A stretch of DNA of 8,110 bases from Deltaproteobacteria bacterium RIFOXYA12_FULL_61_11. Lineage in GTDB: Bacteria; Bdellovibrionota_F; JAHFAK01; YA12-FULL-61-11. The stretch covers positions 1 through 8,110 of the forward strand of contig MGSU01000194.1 in NCBI GenBank assembly GCA_001799195.1. The letters are read 5' to 3'. The translations under genes were made by a program, and so were the position numbers. The stretch's first letter is position 1. Every line of letters starts with the position of its first letter. The notes beneath the pieces were generated by a model. The model was not told where the DNA came from, ran no database searches, and saw only the letters and a program-made list of their open reading frames with translations. Below, piece by piece: positions 404 to 8,110 of this stretch.

Positions 404-1912
404 ATGCCGACCGACCCTACCTTCTCGAACCTTTCGCGCCCGCGGCGGTTCACCTGGCCGGCCGTGCCCGACTCCCCTATCGTACCCCGCCTCGTCCTGC
501 TCGTCGTCCTCTGCACCTGCTGCTACCTCCCGCTCGATATCCTCGGCCGAGGCTACCTCCCGAAGGACGACGCCCTGAGCCACGCGGCCAAGGCCGTCTC
601 GGGCAAGGAGTGGTCCGAGATCCTGGTCCTCGCCCCGCGCGTCGTCCAGGACAGCCATCCCGGCTGGCACTTTCTCCTCCGCGGTCTGCACCTCCTCACG
701 GGCTGGGGCGTACGGCCCCTGGTCATGGCCGAGGTCCTCTGCCTCTTCCTCTGCGTGACCCTGGTCCCCCTTCTCTTCCTGCGCCGGCCCGAGGTCTGGC
801 TGGCCACGCTGTTCGTCGTCTATTCCTGCGACCCACGGCACTTCTACCGCTTGCTGCTCGGCCGACCCCTCCTTTTCACCATGACCGTCCTCCTGCTGCT
901 CTGTTTCGCGTGGACCTACCGCTCGGACTTGCTCCGCAAACGGAGCTGGGCGATGTTCCTCCTCGTGGCTATGGTCCTCGCTGCCTGGCTCCACGGCGCG
1001 TGGCAGCTTTTCCTTATCCCCCTTTGCTGCTGCCTTGCTGCCAGAGCCTTCCGAGCAGCCGGTTTCCTGGCCCTGGGCTTAGCGGTCCAGACCGTCGGCG
1101 CGGCCCTGCTCTCCGGTAACCCGTTGACCTTCGTCGGCCACGTCTTCACACGCACCCTGCACGCCCTGGGCGATTTCCCGTTGCAGCGCATGTTGGTCGA
1201 TGAACTCCAAGGTGTCGAAGGTTTTCCCCTGGTCCTCGGGCTCGTCGCTCTGGTGCTCGTGTGGCAACGTCCCAAACCGCAGAACCTCCTGTGCGATCCG
1301 GTCTTCGTGCTCCTCGCGAGCTGCTACGTGCTTGCCGCCTACTCCGTGCGTTTCTGGATCGACTGGGGTCTGCCGGCTCTTGCTTGTTTCTTGGCCCCGC
1401 GCTTCGAAGAGGCGGCCCTTCGCCATCAGGGGGACCAAGCCTGGTCCAGGCTCGTGACCGTTGCCTGTCTGGCGGCAACGCTGATCGTGAGCGTGACCTC
1501 GGATGTCGGTGGGAGGTGGAGCGAGGCCGAGACCCGGGATGCGCTCTCCTCGAGTAAGCCTTCGCATGCGACCTGGCTCCCTGAACCGGGCGGCATCCTC
1601 TATGCCTCAGAGGCCGAGGTCTTCTTCTCCACCTTCGCGGCCAACCCCCATGCCCCCTGGCGCTACGCCCTGGGCATCGAGGCGACCATGATGGCCCCCG
1701 AGGACTTCGAGGTCCTGAAGACCATCCGCCTCAACCGCGGTTCGGTGCAAGCCCATCGCCCTTGGGCGGCGAAGCTCCGGCCCGAGGATCGCCTCGTCCT
1801 CCTGCGGCCGTACGGCACCCCGCCTGCTCTCCCCGAGTTGGAATGGTCCTACCTTGCTCGGAACACCTGGGTTGGCAGGACTCCTCGAGGTAGCGCGAAC
1901 GGAGGCAACTGA
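404..1912 (+). CDS. Polytopic membrane protein, GT-C glycosyltransferase-like
   Basis: A 502-residue protein starting at ATG 404, with AGAGG at 394-398 five bases upstream. The frame is open from 242, but that stretch overlaps the preceding gene and has no comparable start. About nine to ten hydrophobic segments are visible (near residues 27-46, 106-126, 130-141, 156-171, 182-200, 202-216, 219-238, 274-287, 298-313, 318-331, 348-364), then a soluble C-terminal region of about 135 residues. The loop after the first segment carries an acidic pair (KDDALSH, D55-D56), followed by DSHPGWHFLL near residues 83-92. Known GT-C enzymes (PMT/ArnT type) have acidic catalytic residues in this first extracytoplasmic loop. 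Inferred role: transfer of sugar from a lipid-linked donor on the outer face of the inner membrane. The tail (APWRYALGIEATM, KLRPEDRLVLL, TWVGR) resembles conserved ends of such proteins. The substrate is unknown and no named family is certain. Its distance of 11 bases from the barrel gene implies co-transcription. Confidence 0.65.
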   Translation: MPTDPTFSNLSRPRRFTWPAVPDSPIVPRLVLLVVLCTCCYLPLDILGRGYLPKDDALSHAAKAVSGKEWSEILVLAPRVVQDSHPGWHFLLRGLHLLTGWGVRPLVMAEVLCLFLCVTLVPLLFLRRPEVWLATLFVVYSCDPRHFYRLLLGRPLLFTMTVLLLLCFAWTYRSDLLRKRSWAMFLLVAMVLAAWLHGAWQLFLIPLCCCLAARAFRAAGFLALGLAVQTVGAALLSGNPLTFVGHVFTRTLHALGDFPLQRMLVDELQGVEGFPLVLGLVALVLVWQRPKPQNLLCDPVFVLLASCYVLAAYSVRFWIDWGLPALACFLAPRFEEAALRHQGDQAWSRLVTVACLAATLIVSVTSDVGGRWSEAETRDALSSSKPSHATWLPEPGGILYASEAEVFFSTFAANPHAPWRYALGIEATMMAPEDFEVLKTIRLNRGSVQAHRPWAAKLRPEDRLVLLRPYGTPPALPELEWSYLARNTWVGRTPRGSANGGN

Positions 1913-1931
1913 TATCGCAACCCTCGAGGTA
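1883..1931. repeat. 10-base direct repeat at the 3' end of the GT-C-like gene
   Basis: CCTCGAGGTA occurs at 1883-1892, inside the last codons of the + gene, and again at 1922-1931, just after its stop. The spacing is 39 bases. CCTCGAGG is itself a palindrome. The repeat sits where the minus-strand broken gene stops looking protein-like, so it could mark a deletion or recombination junction. A 10-base match in GC-rich DNA may also be chance. Confidence 0.4.
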
Positions 1932-2483
1932 ACCCTGTTCGGCGGCGAGCCGAAGATTGAGCGCCCGCACCTTCTCGGTGTTCTCTTTGAAATACAACCC
2001 GACCGAGAGCATGTACGAGAAGGTCTCGTGCAATTCACGCTCGTCGATGTATAAAGGAGATCCGAAAAACAAATACTTGGGCTTTCGAGTGACCCAGTCC
2101 TCGTTCGAGACAAAGCGGTTGGTATTGGCGACGAAACCGAACTGTTGCATGAACTCGATTAGGGTATTCCCGCTGCGCGTATCGAAGAGCCAGGGCATGT
2201 AGAGGTATTATTCTGCATCAGTTCCAGCCGGGGAAAGAGAAACATCGTGGAGCAATAGTTGCGGGGTCTGATCTCCATGCTGGGGGATGTCAGGCCTTCG
2301 ACGGGCGTATCCCGGTCGCGGACTTCGACCAATTCCAGTTCTTCGAGGCTGGTCGGCTCGATCAACGGAAAGTGCGGGTTCTTGTGCAAGCGCAGCATGC
2401 TGGGTTCCCATGTCGCGACGCGGTATGCATTGGCATTGCGGATTTTCCACCTTTCCCTGTTGATCCAAAAAGTGTGTCAACAT
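1908..2483 (-). pseudogene. Broken minus-strand gene of unknown family with two apparent frameshifts
   Basis: Reading leftwards from ATG 2483, protein-like sequence moves between frames. The ATG frame gives MLTHF; removing one T from the five-T run (A5 on + at 2467-2471) leads into WINRERWKIRNANAYRVATW and on through MLRLHKNPHFPLIEPTSLEE, TSPSMEIRPRNYCSTMFLF to LELMQNN near 2207. A second shift near 2203-2212 leads into YLYMPWLFDTRSGNTLIEF, RKPKYLFFGSPLYIDEREL and KENTEKVRALNLRLAAEQGY. After GCDIS (about 1908) the reading becomes low-complexity antisense of the + gene, so the natural 3' end seems lost. Without repair, the second frame is closed upstream by TGA at 2479-2477 and the first ends by a stop at 2210-2208. 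About 190 residues are recoverable. I do not recognise the family; no signal peptide or catalytic motif is evident. It lies 60 bases downstream of the cysteine-repeat gene in the same direction and may once have shared its operon. Sequencing error in short homopolymers would give the same picture. Confidence 0.6.
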
Positions 2484-2543
2484 GGTATCTTTGGGGGGTC
2501 TTGGTGAACCTCACGCTTCACGCCGACGATACTGGAGGGGCGT

Positions 2544-5033
2544 TCAGCGTGGACCGACTGTCCCGTAGTTGGTCTCGAGGCACTCGGTCAGTTGAGAGTT
2601 TTCCCCGATCGCAGGAGCGAACTCGCCGCAGACTTGCATAAGCAGGAATAGGCCTTCGAGACAACCCTCGAAGACGTCTTTCCGCTTTTCCTCCGGGATC
2701 TGGTAGTTCGCGAAGGACAGGTTTTCCACCTCGCACCGCTTCAGGCACTGACGAAAATCGTCGGCCACCCAGTTTTCGCTCGCGTTCCCGCGCTCACAGC
2801 TCGATAAACACTCTTTATGTCCTTCGAGATTGGCATCGATATCTACGGCCTCGCTCATGCTCCGGCCCTGCAGGCAGAGCTCGGTGCACTGCTGGTGTTG
2901 CTCGGGCCTACCCTCGGGCATGGCCTGGCGGCAACTGATCTCGCAGTACGCCGAGCGATCCGCCGGACCGCGGCACTCGTTCACGCAGGTCAGGAAGTCA
3001 TCGGTTTGGGGCCTGCCATCGGCGCAACGCAGCTCGCATTCCAGGGCAGGCGCGGCATTTCCAGCGCATTGCTGTTGGCAACGATCGATTGCGGCCGGGT
3101 CGGAGAGATGATCGCAGCCCAACTTACACTGTTCTTCGGCCGGTGGTTGAAAACCGGGACAACCCTGCAGGCAGGCCAATACCTGCTCCTCGCCTCGAGC
3201 TTGGAAATCCTTACCGCACTGTTCGGGACAATACATAACCGGATCCACCGGCTCGGGTGCCGGCAAGCACTGCTGCAGACAGCCCTCGTACACTTCGGGT
3301 CCTTCGGACTTGCGATCGCGACACTGCATGAGACAAGGATCCTCGACCGGTGGCGCCGAAGCCAGGTTGCACTTGGTCGAACGACAGCGCTCGATCGCTT
3401 CAATCCCCTCATCGGCAAACTCATCGTGACACCGTAGAGAGCACGAGTCCTCTCCGACCATCAGACCGGCCGCCTCGAGACAACGCTGGACCGAAGCGGT
3501 TTCACCCTCGGTTCCATCGGGAGGGAAAAGCTCTTTACAGACCACGTCGCACGGCGGTATTTCCTGCTGCTCGCCGAGGTACTCCTGCTTGCATTCGCGC
3601 AGGCAAAGCTCGCGGCCTTCCGGATCGACGGGATCGACGGCATTGCACTGCTCCTGGCAGCGAGCAACGATATCTTCATCTGGAATTGGCGCAGGCCCTG
3701 GTTGGCAACGTCGACACATCTCGAGGCAGAGGGGAGCCTGCTCGGCTTCGAAAGACCCCTTGCAGCGTTCCTCGCAGGATGGGGCGGTGGAGAGAGGTTC
3801 GAAGCCTCGACACGCATCGATACAGTGTTGGAAAGAGGCCGGATCGGTGTTGTTGCCGAATTCCTGCTTGCACCGTTCCTCACAGGCAGCCGGTAGTGGC
3901 TGCGGCACCGGCAGGTTCGGATTGCCGTCGGAACATGCCGCCAGGCAGCGTTCGATCGCGAGCGGATCCCTGGTGCCGTCATTGGCCTCGAAATCCAGCT
4001 TGCACCGTTCTTCGCAGGTCACGGGGGCGGGATTTGGGGAGACATTGGCGCTGTTTGGTTCGCCACCGCAAGAAGCCAAGCACGTTTCGATCACGGCAGG
4101 ATCATCGGCATCCGCCAATTTCTCTTTACACTCGTAACGGCATTGATCGATGGGGTCGAACGCGGGCTGCGGCAGCGGGTCGCCGCAACCGGCCAGACAG
4201 TGGTCGATGGCCGCGGCGTCGTTGGTCGAGGAGAACTCGGTCTTGCATTTGATCCGGCACTCTTCCTGCCAGGGCAGCGCGGGGGTGGGCGGTACTTCTA
4301 TCTCGCGGCAACGGGTGAGACACATCTCGAACTGAGCCGGATCCGCGAGAGTCCCGGCCTTGCATTGTTCCTCGCAGCTTAGGTTTACCTGGCCGGGCAC
4401 AATCTCATTGACCATGATCTCTTCACAACGTTTGAAACACAACCCGGCATTGGGATCGTTCTCCGGACCTTGGGGGAAGAGTTGTTTGCAATCGCCGAGG
4501 CAGAGTTGGTAACGCAGCAAATTGCGGTCTTCGTCGAGCTGAACAGCCGATTCTCCGGTCTCGGACTTTACACAGACCTTGCGGCAATCTTCGTAGGTGT
4601 GCTTGGCATCCTCGCTCTTCTTGCATTCGATCGTGCATTGTTCTTCGGCTATGGTCGGGATCGGCTGAGAATTCCGGGGGTCTAATCCTGCACAGCGATC
4701 GAGATCGCCGTAGAAGCCGGTGCCGAAGAGACGACGGGCACACTGCATGTAGTCGTCGGAAAACTCGACGTCTTCGACGTGGTGGGAACAACGGTTCATC
4801 GGGTCGGCCACCAACCCGTCGGGAGCACGGAACATGAACAGGGTCCGCCCTGCCAAGTCCTCGAAAGCGGCGGCTTGCCGGTCGGAGGTGGCGTCGCTCT
4901 CAGCGAAACGAACGGTCTCCTCGGTCGTTTCCTCATCTTCCTGCTTGAATTGCTCGAGGAACTGCGGATCGCAGGCCGTGATGGAACTCAGCATGAGGAT
5001 CAAGGCCACAAATAAACTCGAAACATGCCACAT
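2544..5033 (-). CDS. Large cysteine-repeat lipoprotein with 17 tandem twin-CX3C units
   Basis: An 829-residue protein from ATG 5033, chosen because GGAGGG lies four bases upstream and the hydrophobic leader begins there; the frame stays open to 5087, and ATG 5048 is the alternative. The leader MWHVSSLFVALILMLSSITA ends in the lipobox ITAC, with lipid-attachment Cys at residue 21 followed by Asp-Pro. An acidic linker (QEDEETTEETVRFAESD) and a region with Cys 82, 98 and 114 lead into residues 133-767. There, 17 units follow CX3C-x(11-18)-CX3C, often as CEERCK...ERCLAAC, joined by Pro/Asp-rich linkers with a 30-45 residue period. About 75 Cys occur in total. The second half of unit 10 has lost a Cys (CLEAA) and that of unit 11 is CX4C. 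The end carries three more Cys. Twin CX3C is known from small TIM chaperones, where the four Cys form two disulfides across a helical hairpin. I infer an exported, disulfide-stapled rod of hairpins anchored by lipid. The function is unknown: structural, metal-binding or binding-protein roles are all possible. Confidence 0.85.
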   Translation of the reverse strand: MWHVSSLFVALILMLSSITACDPQFLEQFKQEDEETTEETVRFAESDATSDRQAAAFEDLAGRTLFMFRAPDGLVADPMNRCSHHVEDVEFSDDYMQCARRLFGTGFYGDLDRCAGLDPRNSQPIPTIAEEQCTIECKKSEDAKHTYEDCRKVCVKSETGESAVQLDEDRNLLRYQLCLGDCKQLFPQGPENDPNAGLCFKRCEEIMVNEIVPGQVNLSCEEQCKAGTLADPAQFEMCLTRCREIEVPPTPALPWQEECRIKCKTEFSSTNDAAAIDHCLAGCGDPLPQPAFDPIDQCRYECKEKLADADDPAVIETCLASCGGEPNSANVSPNPAPVTCEERCKLDFEANDGTRDPLAIERCLAACSDGNPNLPVPQPLPAACEERCKQEFGNNTDPASFQHCIDACRGFEPLSTAPSCEERCKGSFEAEQAPLCLEMCRRCQPGPAPIPDEDIVARCQEQCNAVDPVDPEGRELCLRECKQEYLGEQQEIPPCDVVCKELFPPDGTEGETASVQRCLEAAGLMVGEDSCSLRCHDEFADEGIEAIERCRSTKCNLASAPPVEDPCLMQCRDRKSEGPEVYEGCLQQCLPAPEPVDPVMYCPEQCGKDFQARGEEQVLACLQGCPGFQPPAEEQCKLGCDHLSDPAAIDRCQQQCAGNAAPALECELRCADGRPQTDDFLTCVNECRGPADRSAYCEISCRQAMPEGRPEQHQQCTELCLQGRSMSEAVDIDANLEGHKECLSSCERGNASENWVADDFRQCLKRCEVENLSFANYQIPEEKRKDVFEGCLEGLFLLMQVCGEFAPAIGENSQLTECLETNYGTVGPR
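2733..4637 (-). repeat. Region encoding 17 twin-CX3C protein repeats
   Basis: Unit starts (first Cys, residue in the 829-residue protein): 133, 178, 220, 259, 298, 340, 384, 420, 459, 495, 531, 567, 602, 636, 666, 697, 742. The gaps between the paired CX3C motifs are 12, 16, 13, 15, 15, 18, 15, 11, 13, 18, 14, 13, 14, 11, 12, 14 and 16 residues. Units 4-8 are most alike (Cys-x3-Cys-Lys, then a Phe or Leu two or three residues on, then AIERCLAAC-like). The DNA is not a near-identical tandem array, so the units are old and divergent and the repeat is visible only at protein level. Confidence 0.85.
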
Positions 5034-5442: not shown

Positions 5443-6294
5443 ATGAACGAAAGGGTACCCAGGCATCTGCAGTTCTCGGACGGCGCGCTGCTGCACATGT
5501 ATTGGCAGTGCACCAACCACAATAAGCAGTACCTCTTCGAGAACGAAGACCTCAAAGAACTCTACCTGGAGCTGGTAGCGAAGTATAAGAAGCAGTACGA
5601 TATCAAGCTATTGGACTTTGCGCTCATGGGTAACCATCAACATCTCCTCGTACGTATATCGACGGTCGCGAAGTTCTCGCGTTTTCTGCAGAGCCTGCAT
5701 ACGTCGTTCGCCCGGCGGGTGAATAACCACTACGGCAACACCGGAGCCGTGGTCGAGAACCGGGTCAAGGTCTCGGTGGTCGAAGAGACCGACGAGGCGA
5801 TCCTTTCCGTGCAGCGTTATCTCGCGCTCAACCGCTGGAACTGCGAGGAGCGCACCCTGCCGCAGGACTACCGCTTCTGCGGCTACCGCCACTACGCCGG
5901 GCTTGAGCGAGACGACCGTATCGATACCTCCGAAGCATGGTTGGCCCTGGGCGATACAGACGAAGAACGTTTTGCTGCATACGGAGAGATGGTGGAAGCC
6001 CGACGCCAAGAACTGGGTCTAGGCCCGCAGGAACCTGACGATCTCCCATCCTTCTACAGTGGCTCCCCGGACTTTTGCCGCATCCACACCGAGCGGTTAC
6101 TCCAGGCTTTCCGAGAGCATAACAAAGCTCTCACCGCCGCTCGGGCCCTGAGCCTCACAACTTCCGACGCCGCTGCATCCTGCGCATCGCTTGGAGGTCG
6201 GCATCCCTGCCGCCATCACCGTTGCTCTCTGCATCCTGCAGCAACGGTAGGTCGGCATCCCTGCCGCCACTCCGACGCGTTGAAAAAAGACTGA
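5443..6294 (+). CDS. REP-associated tyrosine transposase (RAYT), Y1 HUH family
   Basis: A 283-residue protein. Known Y1/RAYT enzymes cut single-stranded DNA at REP hairpins using an HUH motif for metal and one catalytic Tyr. Seen here: MGNHQHLLV with H65-Q66-H67 as the HxH motif (Gln is unusual where a hydrophobic residue is normal); KFSRFLQSLHTSFARRVNNH and GAVVENRVKV as the family's central helix and strand; VQRYLALNRW with Y126 as the probable catalytic Tyr, matching YIxxNP of relatives although Pro is Arg here; then QDYRFCGYRHYAG, the typical S/G-YRHYAG segment. The N-terminus (RHLQFSDGALLHMYWQCTNH) aligns with usual family starts, supporting ATG 5443 although no good ribosome site precedes it and the frame is open 28 codons further. 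The tail from about residue 248 is Cys/His-rich because two REP-like palindromes lie inside the coding sequence, giving GRHPCRH twice. Probably a single-copy domesticated transposase. Confidence 0.9.
   Translation: MNERVPRHLQFSDGALLHMYWQCTNHNKQYLFENEDLKELYLELVAKYKKQYDIKLLDFALMGNHQHLLVRISTVAKFSRFLQSLHTSFARRVNNHYGNTGAVVENRVKVSVVEETDEAILSVQRYLALNRWNCEERTLPQDYRFCGYRHYAGLERDDRIDTSEAWLALGDTDEERFAAYGEMVEARRQELGLGPQEPDDLPSFYSGSPDFCRIHTERLLQAFREHNKALTAARALSLTTSDAAASCASLGGRHPCRHHRCSLHPAATVGRHPCRHSDALKKD
6173..6269 (+). repeat. Pair of direct REP-like palindromes in the 3' end of the transposase gene
   Basis: Two units share CTGCATCCTGC (6173-6183, 6229-6239) followed by a REP-like element (6193-6215, 6247-6269). 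Each element has a foot tetranucleotide, GGAG in the first and GTAG in the second, then GTCGGCATCCCTGCCGCCA. CGGCA and TGCCG pair around a TCCC loop; the flanking GG and CC extend the stem past a bulged T. Known REPs have a GTAG or GGAG foot and an imperfect stem, so the fit is close. Between the elements lies the inverted repeat ACCGTTGCT (6218-6226) / AGCAACGGT (6240-6248). The 54-base element spacing is a multiple of three, so both copies are read in the same frame. Confidence 0.75.
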
Positions 6295-6575: not shown

Positions 6576-6701
6576 ATGCCTGCTTTTCGGTGTGGAGTGA
6601 GTGGGGTTCGGAGTGCTGCAAAAATCGCTGCAGAAGCAAAGTCCAACGAGGAGTGGATGATTGCCGAGGTTTATGAGGTTTATAAAGTGTGGAACCTATA
6701 A
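6576..6701 (+). CDS. Small ORF overlapping the start of the Sel1-repeat gene
   Basis: A 41-codon ORF from ATG 6576 to TAA 6699-6701, ending 13 bases inside the Sel1-repeat gene. Its second half (AAKIAAEAKSNEEWMIAEVY) reads like an ordinary amphipathic helix. An internal ATG at 6657, preceded by GAGGAG (6648-6653), would give a 14-residue peptide ending EVYEVYKVWNL. Three readings are possible: a translated leader that couples to the downstream GTG; the 3' end of a decayed gene; or the true N-terminus of the Sel1 protein, separated by a two-base change in GTGTG (6687-6691). Removing GT there fuses EVYEVYKV to EPINNIVKSEEIAEALG. No homology is recognised. Confidence 0.3.
   Translation: MPAFRCGVSGVRSAAKIAAEAKSNEEWMIAEVYEVYKVWNL
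6666..6683 (+). repeat. 9-base tandem duplication in the leader of the Sel1-repeat gene
   Basis: GAGGTTTAT at 6666-6674 and 6675-6683. Each copy carries a GAGG that could serve as a ribosome-binding site; the second is ten bases from GTG 6689. It encodes EVYEVY in the small-ORF frame. Confidence 0.7.
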
Positions 6702-8110
6702 ATAATATTGTTAAATCAGAAGAAATTGCTGAGGCTTTGGGGTGCTTTCACGATGGACATGTCCAGTTCCTCGGATCTCGGTCTCAGCAGCTCTACCTCG
6801 AAGTCAACGGTTGCTTTGATCCATATGATTCGCCTGACAATAGGAAATCATGTTGTCTGGTCTTCATCGATTATCGAGAAGATTCGCTGAGGCTGGAGAT
6901 CGAACAAGACTATTTCAACAACATACATCAGTATCCTCTCTTTTGCGGCCCACGCCGTCCGTTGCAGGTTGGCGATTTTCTTGGTTACGAGCCGGTATAC
7001 GAGGATCATTTAATTGTCGTGAAGAACCCCGCAAAGATTTTCGCACTCAACGTTGAGATCCTGTATACATCCTATTCCGAGGCTACCATCAGCATCGAAT
7101 GCATGCTTCATATACATGGGATCAATGGCATATATGCTTGTCCTGGTGCCTATCTGAGATTGATTGCAACGAGCCTCGTTGTGGTAGATGAAAAAGGAAG
7201 AACGTATTGCAAAGAAGAACTTACATCGATGTGCCGTGATTGGTGGGCAAAATGGCATGAGCTACAGGTCAAGCAAAGGAGTTGTCTCGCTCCGGCACAA
7301 GGAGAAAGACCAAGAGCATCGGAGGTGCCCAGCCAAGACCTCTTGAAAAAGGCAGATAGCGGTGACCCTGAGGCATTGTTTGCCGTTGCCAACCTGTACT
7401 TTTCATCAATTCGTTCAGCGGAAGACTTCGAGCATGCTCTTCAATGGTATGCCAGAGCAGCCGCTGCTGGCCATGCCGAAGCCCAATATAGAATTGGAGA
7501 AATCCTTGTTTCGCGTAACAGGAGCAAGATCGAAGATTATTCCGATCAAGTCCGTGCAAGACAGTATTTTGGTCGTGCAGCGAGACAAGGACATCTCGAC
7601 GCAATATTCCAATTGGGAGTACTCTATGTGACCGGGAGAGGGGGCAATAAAAACATCAAGAAAGCTGTCACCTGTTTCAGAAAAGCGGCCAAGGATGGTG
7701 GTCAAGCTGCACTGTATAATTTAGGCGCCATCTATCAGTCACGTGACGATATTCGATGTCCGCATGATGTTGCCTTTCGTTACTTCCTCCGATCGGCGCA
7801 GCAGGGGTATGCCGCTGCGCAATATGCAGTCGGGACAGCGTATTTGTATGGGCGAGGAGTGGAGAAGGATATCGACAAGAGCATCATCTGGTTGAGACGA
7901 GCAGGGGCTCAGGCCGAAGGCAGGGCCTTGTTGACTTTGGGGCATCTGTTTCGACAGGGCTTGGGAGTCGCGAGGAACCTTGAGGCGGCCTACTACTTTC
8001 ATCGATGTGCGATGCAACATTTCGCGTTCCGACGCGATCGAGCATTCCATTACCACCAAGCGGAGCGCTTGGTGGTTGATCTTGTTTCGGAAATTCCAAT
8101 TCCCACGTTG
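6689..8110 (+). CDS. Sel1-repeat protein with an N-terminal FHDG-motif domain (3' end beyond window)
   Basis: Open without a stop from GTG 6689 to the last base (474 codons). An in-frame TAA at 6683-6685 leaves GTG 6689 as the natural start; the first ATG is far inside at 7103. Residues 1 to about 200 form a beta-rich region: EEIAEALGCFHDGHVQFLGS (FHDG at 20-23), LYLEVNGCFDPYDSP, CCLVFIDY, LIVVKNPAKIFALNVEIL. Such FHD-start domains recall small immunity-type or uncharacterised proteins, but I cannot name the family. From about residue 215 there are six Sel1-like repeats (starting near 226, 262, 302, 338, 374, 411), for example AAAQYAVGTAYLYGRGVEKD and LDAIFQLGVLYVTGRGGNKN with WYARAAAAG and CFRKAAKDG. 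Sel1 repeats are known alpha-helical scaffolds for protein binding; in bacteria they occur in signalling and in toxin-immunity or effector loci. No signal peptide is seen, so it is probably cytoplasmic. G+C is clearly lower than in the left block (27/60 at 7021-7080), suggesting transfer. Confidence 0.85.
   Translation, partial: MEPINNIVKSEEIAEALGCFHDGHVQFLGSRSQQLYLEVNGCFDPYDSPDNRKSCCLVFIDYREDSLRLEIEQDYFNNIHQYPLFCGPRRPLQVGDFLGYEPVYEDHLIVVKNPAKIFALNVEILYTSYSEATISIECMLHIHGINGIYACPGAYLRLIATSLVVVDEKGRTYCKEELTSMCRDWWAKWHELQVKQRSCLAPAQGERPRASEVPSQDLLKKADSGDPEALFAVANLYFSSIRSAEDFEHALQWYARAAAAGHAEAQYRIGEILVSRNRSKIEDYSDQVRARQYFGRAARQGHLDAIFQLGVLYVTGRGGNKNIKKAVTCFRKAAKDGGQAALYNLGAIYQSRDDIRCPHDVAFRYFLRSAQQGYAAAQYAVGTAYLYGRGVEKDIDKSIIWLRRAGAQAEGRALLTLGHLFRQGLGVARNLEAAYYFHRCAMQHFAFRRDRAFHYHQAERLVVDLVSEIPIPTL

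Follow-up and report, generated by a model that had tools for sequence, protein, structure and literature searches.

Organization of the locus

The window, i.e., the whole stretch of 8,110 nucleotides analysed here, contains on its minus strand a gene for a cysteine-rich lipoprotein (2544..5033). The open reading frame runs from an ATG through a stop codon and yields a product of 829 amino acids with 75 cysteines; translation and a motif count agree with the initial annotation in the coordinates, in the number of repeated units (17) and in the content of about 75 cysteines in 829 residues. The gene assignment is based on the reading frame and its translation, a ribosome-binding site, and the dN/dS against a paralogue in the same genome (see below). 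The ribosome-binding site, GAGGGAGG, lies a few bases 5' of the ATG at 5033, and the same site is found before the ATG of the paralogue. Since it is common to the two genes, the ATG at 5033 is a supported start.

By sequence, residues 1-21 (4971..5033, minus strand) comprise a signal peptide that ends in a lipobox (LSSITA/C), followed by Asp at position +2. The lipobox itself (ITA/C, residues 18-21) was recognized by inspection, and the stretch ITACDPQ is identical in the paralogue. The n-region of this signal peptide has neither Lys nor Arg. From these features, which are those of a bacterial lipoprotein, we infer the cell location of the protein. Under the Lol rule of E. coli, Asp at +2 means retention in the inner membrane, a rule that may not hold in the present bacterium.

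The signal peptide is followed by an N-terminal domain (4638..4970, minus strand; residues 22-132) with 3 cysteines, the repeat array, and a C-terminal domain (2547..2732, minus strand; residues 768-829), also with 3 cysteines. The N-terminal region (residues 21-132) is the best-conserved part of the paralogue pair, with 78% identity, and the C-terminal domain shows 60% identity. The net charge of the mature protein is -81. When compared with Pfam (E up to 10), NCBIfam and PDB, the full protein gave no usable match; the absence of any Pfam or NCBIfam match is in line with the initial suggestion that it may represent an undescribed family.

The other genes noted in the window lie on the plus strand. 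The gene adjoining that of the lipoprotein (5443-6294) encodes an IS200-like Y1 transposase of the REP-associated type, and the 21-nt sequence AGGTCGGCATCCCTGCCGCCA occurs in two identical copies (6195 and 6249) that have the appearance of REP sequences. A gene for a Sel1-repeat protein (6689-8110) continues past the window end. On the other side, a 505-aa protein with many hydrophobic stretches (395-1912) is probably membrane-embedded and has no Pfam or NCBIfam match, and the C-terminal end of a further protein (3-392) bears a weak, non-significant resemblance (E 0.12) to Omp85-family outer-membrane proteins.

The repeat array and its paralogue

The array (2733..4637, minus strand; residues 133-767) consists of 17 CX3C-Xn-CX3C units separated by Pro-rich linkers of 8-23 residues. 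Fifteen of the 17 units fit the pattern C-X3-C-X(11-18)-C-X3-C perfectly. The remaining two are variants: in the degenerate unit 10 (3468..3551, minus strand; residues 495-522) the fourth cysteine is replaced (CLEAA), which gives a C-X3-A end, and in unit 11 (3369..3443, minus strand; residues 531-555) the second motif is CX4C, as it likewise is in unit 7 of the paralogue. With these two exceptions, the lipid-anchored chain of 17 twin-CX3C units is as it was initially described. The unit consensus is, roughly, C-E-E-R-C-K-x-E-F-...-D-P-A-x-[IVLF]-E-R-C-L-x-x-C, and the proline content is 17% in the linkers versus 4% in the units. When every consecutive CX3C pair is counted, the protein contains 28 twin motifs, compared with a maximum of 4 in 2000 composition shuffles.

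Apart from the lipidated residue, the protein has 74 cysteines, an even number, since an additional cysteine at 443 offsets the loss in unit 10; the corresponding number for the mature paralogue, 58, is even too. This parity is what complete pairing into disulfides would give, although it is no proof of it. At the DNA level, no tandem repeat was found over the array, the window showing only trivial repeats of 9-15 nt, and the duplications are therefore old.

The paralogue, located on contig 52 of the same genome, has 684 residues; it comprises 13 units, and its end domains are the same. In a pairwise alignment the two proteins are 62% identical overall, and the longer array has four complete central units that the shorter one lacks. 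All 59 aligned cysteines are conserved, whereas the other positions are 58% identical. The dN/dS of the pair is ~0.13 (0.29/2.23), a ratio in which dS is saturated.

Resemblance to known families

In sequence comparisons, the nearest resemblance of the units is to the plant alpha-hairpinins. Three of the 30 units matched PF14861 (Antimicrobial21, the plant alpha-hairpinin family) below the threshold, with a best E of 0.00059; in a rescan unit 7 reached 18.8 bits where the cut-off is 27, and no match rose above this cut-off. None of 59 Cys-preserving shuffles matched the family, so the resemblance is not due to cysteine spacing alone. In addition, EcAMP1 and the wasabi receptor toxin are among the weak PDB matches of the unit profile. 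The 4C motif of the alpha-hairpinins is given as CX3C-X(4-20)-CX3C (PMC11591084), and the 15 perfect units, with loops of 11-18 residues, carry it exactly.

The tandem arrangement also has a counterpart in plants. Alpha-hairpinin precursors contain up to 12 tandem CX3C-Xn-CX3C modules with linkers and a C-terminal domain, and vary in that entire modules drop out of the middle (PMC7191063, PMC11591084). The tandem twin-CX3C architecture itself is already known, and the initial portrayal of such a chain as unprecedented is not supported. In particular, the present units share the twin-CX3C motif and the helix-turn-helix (here predicted) with Sm-AMP-X, Tk-AMP-X, MBP-1 and EcAMP1, and the protein shares with the modular precursors a signal peptide followed by tandem, linker-separated modules, as well as the loss of whole modules from the middle. 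Unlike the plant proteins, it is bacterial, lipid-anchored and acidic, has larger N- and C-terminal domains, and carries 17 modules, whereas at most 12 are reported in plants. What is new is this bacterial, lipid-anchored form, which is acidic and has 17 modules with Pro-rich spacers between them; no relative of it was found among several hundred profiled genomes. Because the motifs are short, convergence with the alpha-hairpinins is likelier than homology.

Other families with tandem Cys-rich repeats are more distant. The Golgi GLG1 cysteine-rich repeat (PF00839) was touched by only one of the 30 units (E 0.2), and in the same Pfam comparison of the units, which the initial annotation had proposed, none matched Tim10/DDP. 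The Myxococcus-type cysteine-rich repeats, which are likewise found in tandem in exported bacterial proteins, had been set apart from the outset, and indeed neither the protein nor its units matched any of the NCBIfam models. 

Predicted structure and disulfide formation

For a two-unit model, the repeats of the protein itself were used as the alignment, which was shallow and in which a few rows are still misplaced. This model has four helices, two per unit (H5-15, H22-33, H47-57 and H63-73), with a mean pLDDT of 70 and a pTM of 0.39. A full-length single-sequence model shows helix-turn-helix in most units at low confidence (pLDDT 52). With a shallow alignment or none, these models are weak (pTM 0.24-0.39), and the helical hairpins that had been anticipated are predicted by both at low confidence. 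A PDB structure search with the two-unit model matched no solved structure. The placement of the cysteines in the predicted helices resembles the published structure of EcAMP1, whose disulfides are Cys7-Cys29 and Cys11-Cys25 (PMC7191063). The motif, the helices and EcAMP1 together suggest C1-C4 and C2-C3 pairing within each unit. As for the fold alone, we consider it very probable that each unit is a disulfide-clamped helical hairpin.

The genome holds two VKOR-DsbA fusion genes and two further DsbA-type matches. The fusion proteins (L031 706-1968, minus strand, and L032 1459-2688, plus strand) have CPAC and CPHC active-site motifs and provide the disulfide-forming system expected by the initial annotation. 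Given these two enzymes, oxidized cysteines are likely in the periplasm, and the cysteines of the array are likely to be oxidized.

Distribution

A whole-protein search of 59 genomes gave matches in the own genome only. A unit-profile search of 386 genomes was also restricted to the own genome, except that part of a unit was matched in a single other genome; the open reading frame concerned reads as a phenylalanyl-tRNA synthetase beta chain, and the match was taken as chance. No relative was found by the unit profile in 195 and 10 genomes from two additional phyla, by tblastn in plasmids, or by a peptide-pattern search, a method that reaches close relatives only, in viral contigs and the 84,980 genomes of a species-level collection. 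A literature search for twin-CX3C repeats in bacteria found no bacterial case. The lineage is sparsely sampled: the relatives in the 59-genome search include one other genome of the class, and the nearest named RpoB record is a 'Deltaproteobacteria' MAG with 58% identity. Because of this thin sampling, absence elsewhere is weak evidence.

Interpretation and alternatives

In the explanation that we favour, the 829-aa protein would be exported by Sec and anchored through its lipidated N-terminal cysteine. Its body would consist of 17 small antiparallel helical hairpins in series. In each, the two cysteines of a CX3C motif would lie a single helical turn from one another and be bonded to the cysteines of the partner helix in alpha-hairpinin fashion, and the Pro-rich acidic linkers would space the hairpins like beads on a string. 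The VKOR-DsbA fusion enzymes would form the disulfides in the periplasm. The result would be an envelope stalk or binding scaffold, extended, highly acidic and resistant to proteases, bearing the conserved N- and C-terminal domains. Its number of modules could vary freely, as the 17 and 13 units of the paralogues show.

Taken as a whole, this explanation seems to us evenly poised between right and wrong. The role as a disulfide-armoured envelope stalk or scaffold, proposed from the anatomy of the protein, is tentative, with prospects slightly below even. It is also possible, rather than probable, that tandem disulfide-clamped helical hairpins evolved in bacteria separately from the alpha-hairpinins of plants, giving a protein family that builds a long, armoured filament or stalk on the cell surface, a structural class of which we found no description in bacteria. 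If the favoured explanation is right, a twin-CX3C hairpin already found in plants, animal toxins and mitochondria would also serve bacteria as a building block for long envelope proteins, probably by convergence; it would offer a modular disulfide-locked scaffold to study, and would tie VKOR-DsbA oxidation to a substrate with dozens of disulfides.

The main alternative is a polyprotein of defence or inhibitor peptides, in which the linkers would be cut and single hairpins would act on other microbes or on proteases. The architecture is that of the plant modular precursors, including the short C-terminal domain and the middle-module loss (PMC7191063, PMC11591084), and the units resemble Antimicrobial21. 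We consider it unlikely, however. Antimicrobial peptides carry a positive charge according to PMC7191063, whereas this protein is strongly acidic; inspection of the linkers by eye revealed no dibasic site for cleavage; a lipid anchor is present; and both end domains show the conservation expected of a protein that stays in one piece.

A thiol-based metal store, whose CX3C pairs would bind Cu(I) or similar along the helices, has a small chance of being correct. The very high cysteine content would suit this role, as would CX3C pairs on predicted helices, a feature shared with the Csp copper-storage proteins. On the other hand, the full protein has no Pfam match at E up to 10, it is exported in an organism that also makes VKOR-DsbA oxidases, its cysteines are probably oxidized, the Pro-rich linkers speak against a four-helix bundle, and no metal gene was seen in the window; no evidence emerged for the metal-loading role that had been suggested. 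It is very unlikely that the protein is a redox buffer or a substrate of a disulfide relay rather than a structural protein: a chain with 37 possible disulfides might serve this purpose, but the units are without a CXXC active-site-like pattern, and the unit-by-unit conservation of cysteines fits structural bonds.

A periplasmic chaperone with hairpins that bind hydrophobic clients, in the manner of the small TIMs to which the units were initially likened, is hardly credible: the CX3C spacing is in the same range as in Tim9/Tim10/DDP, but no unit matched Tim10/DDP in Pfam at E up to 10, the alpha-hairpinins resemble the units best, and each chain of the mitochondrial small TIMs has a single unit whose CX3C motifs are flanked by long helical arms, where the present protein has 17 units and Pro-rich linkers.

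Genes around the paralogue

The genes around the two paralogues differ, and there is no operon. In locus L004, near the paralogue, a gene at 1-534 on the plus strand encodes a protein with YYLDENGYAYYLDENGYAYY-type repeats and no Pfam match. The gene adjoining the paralogue, at 1404-4562 on the minus strand, encodes a 1052-aa protein in which a spermidine-synthase domain and TPR repeats are fused to an MFS-like membrane part.
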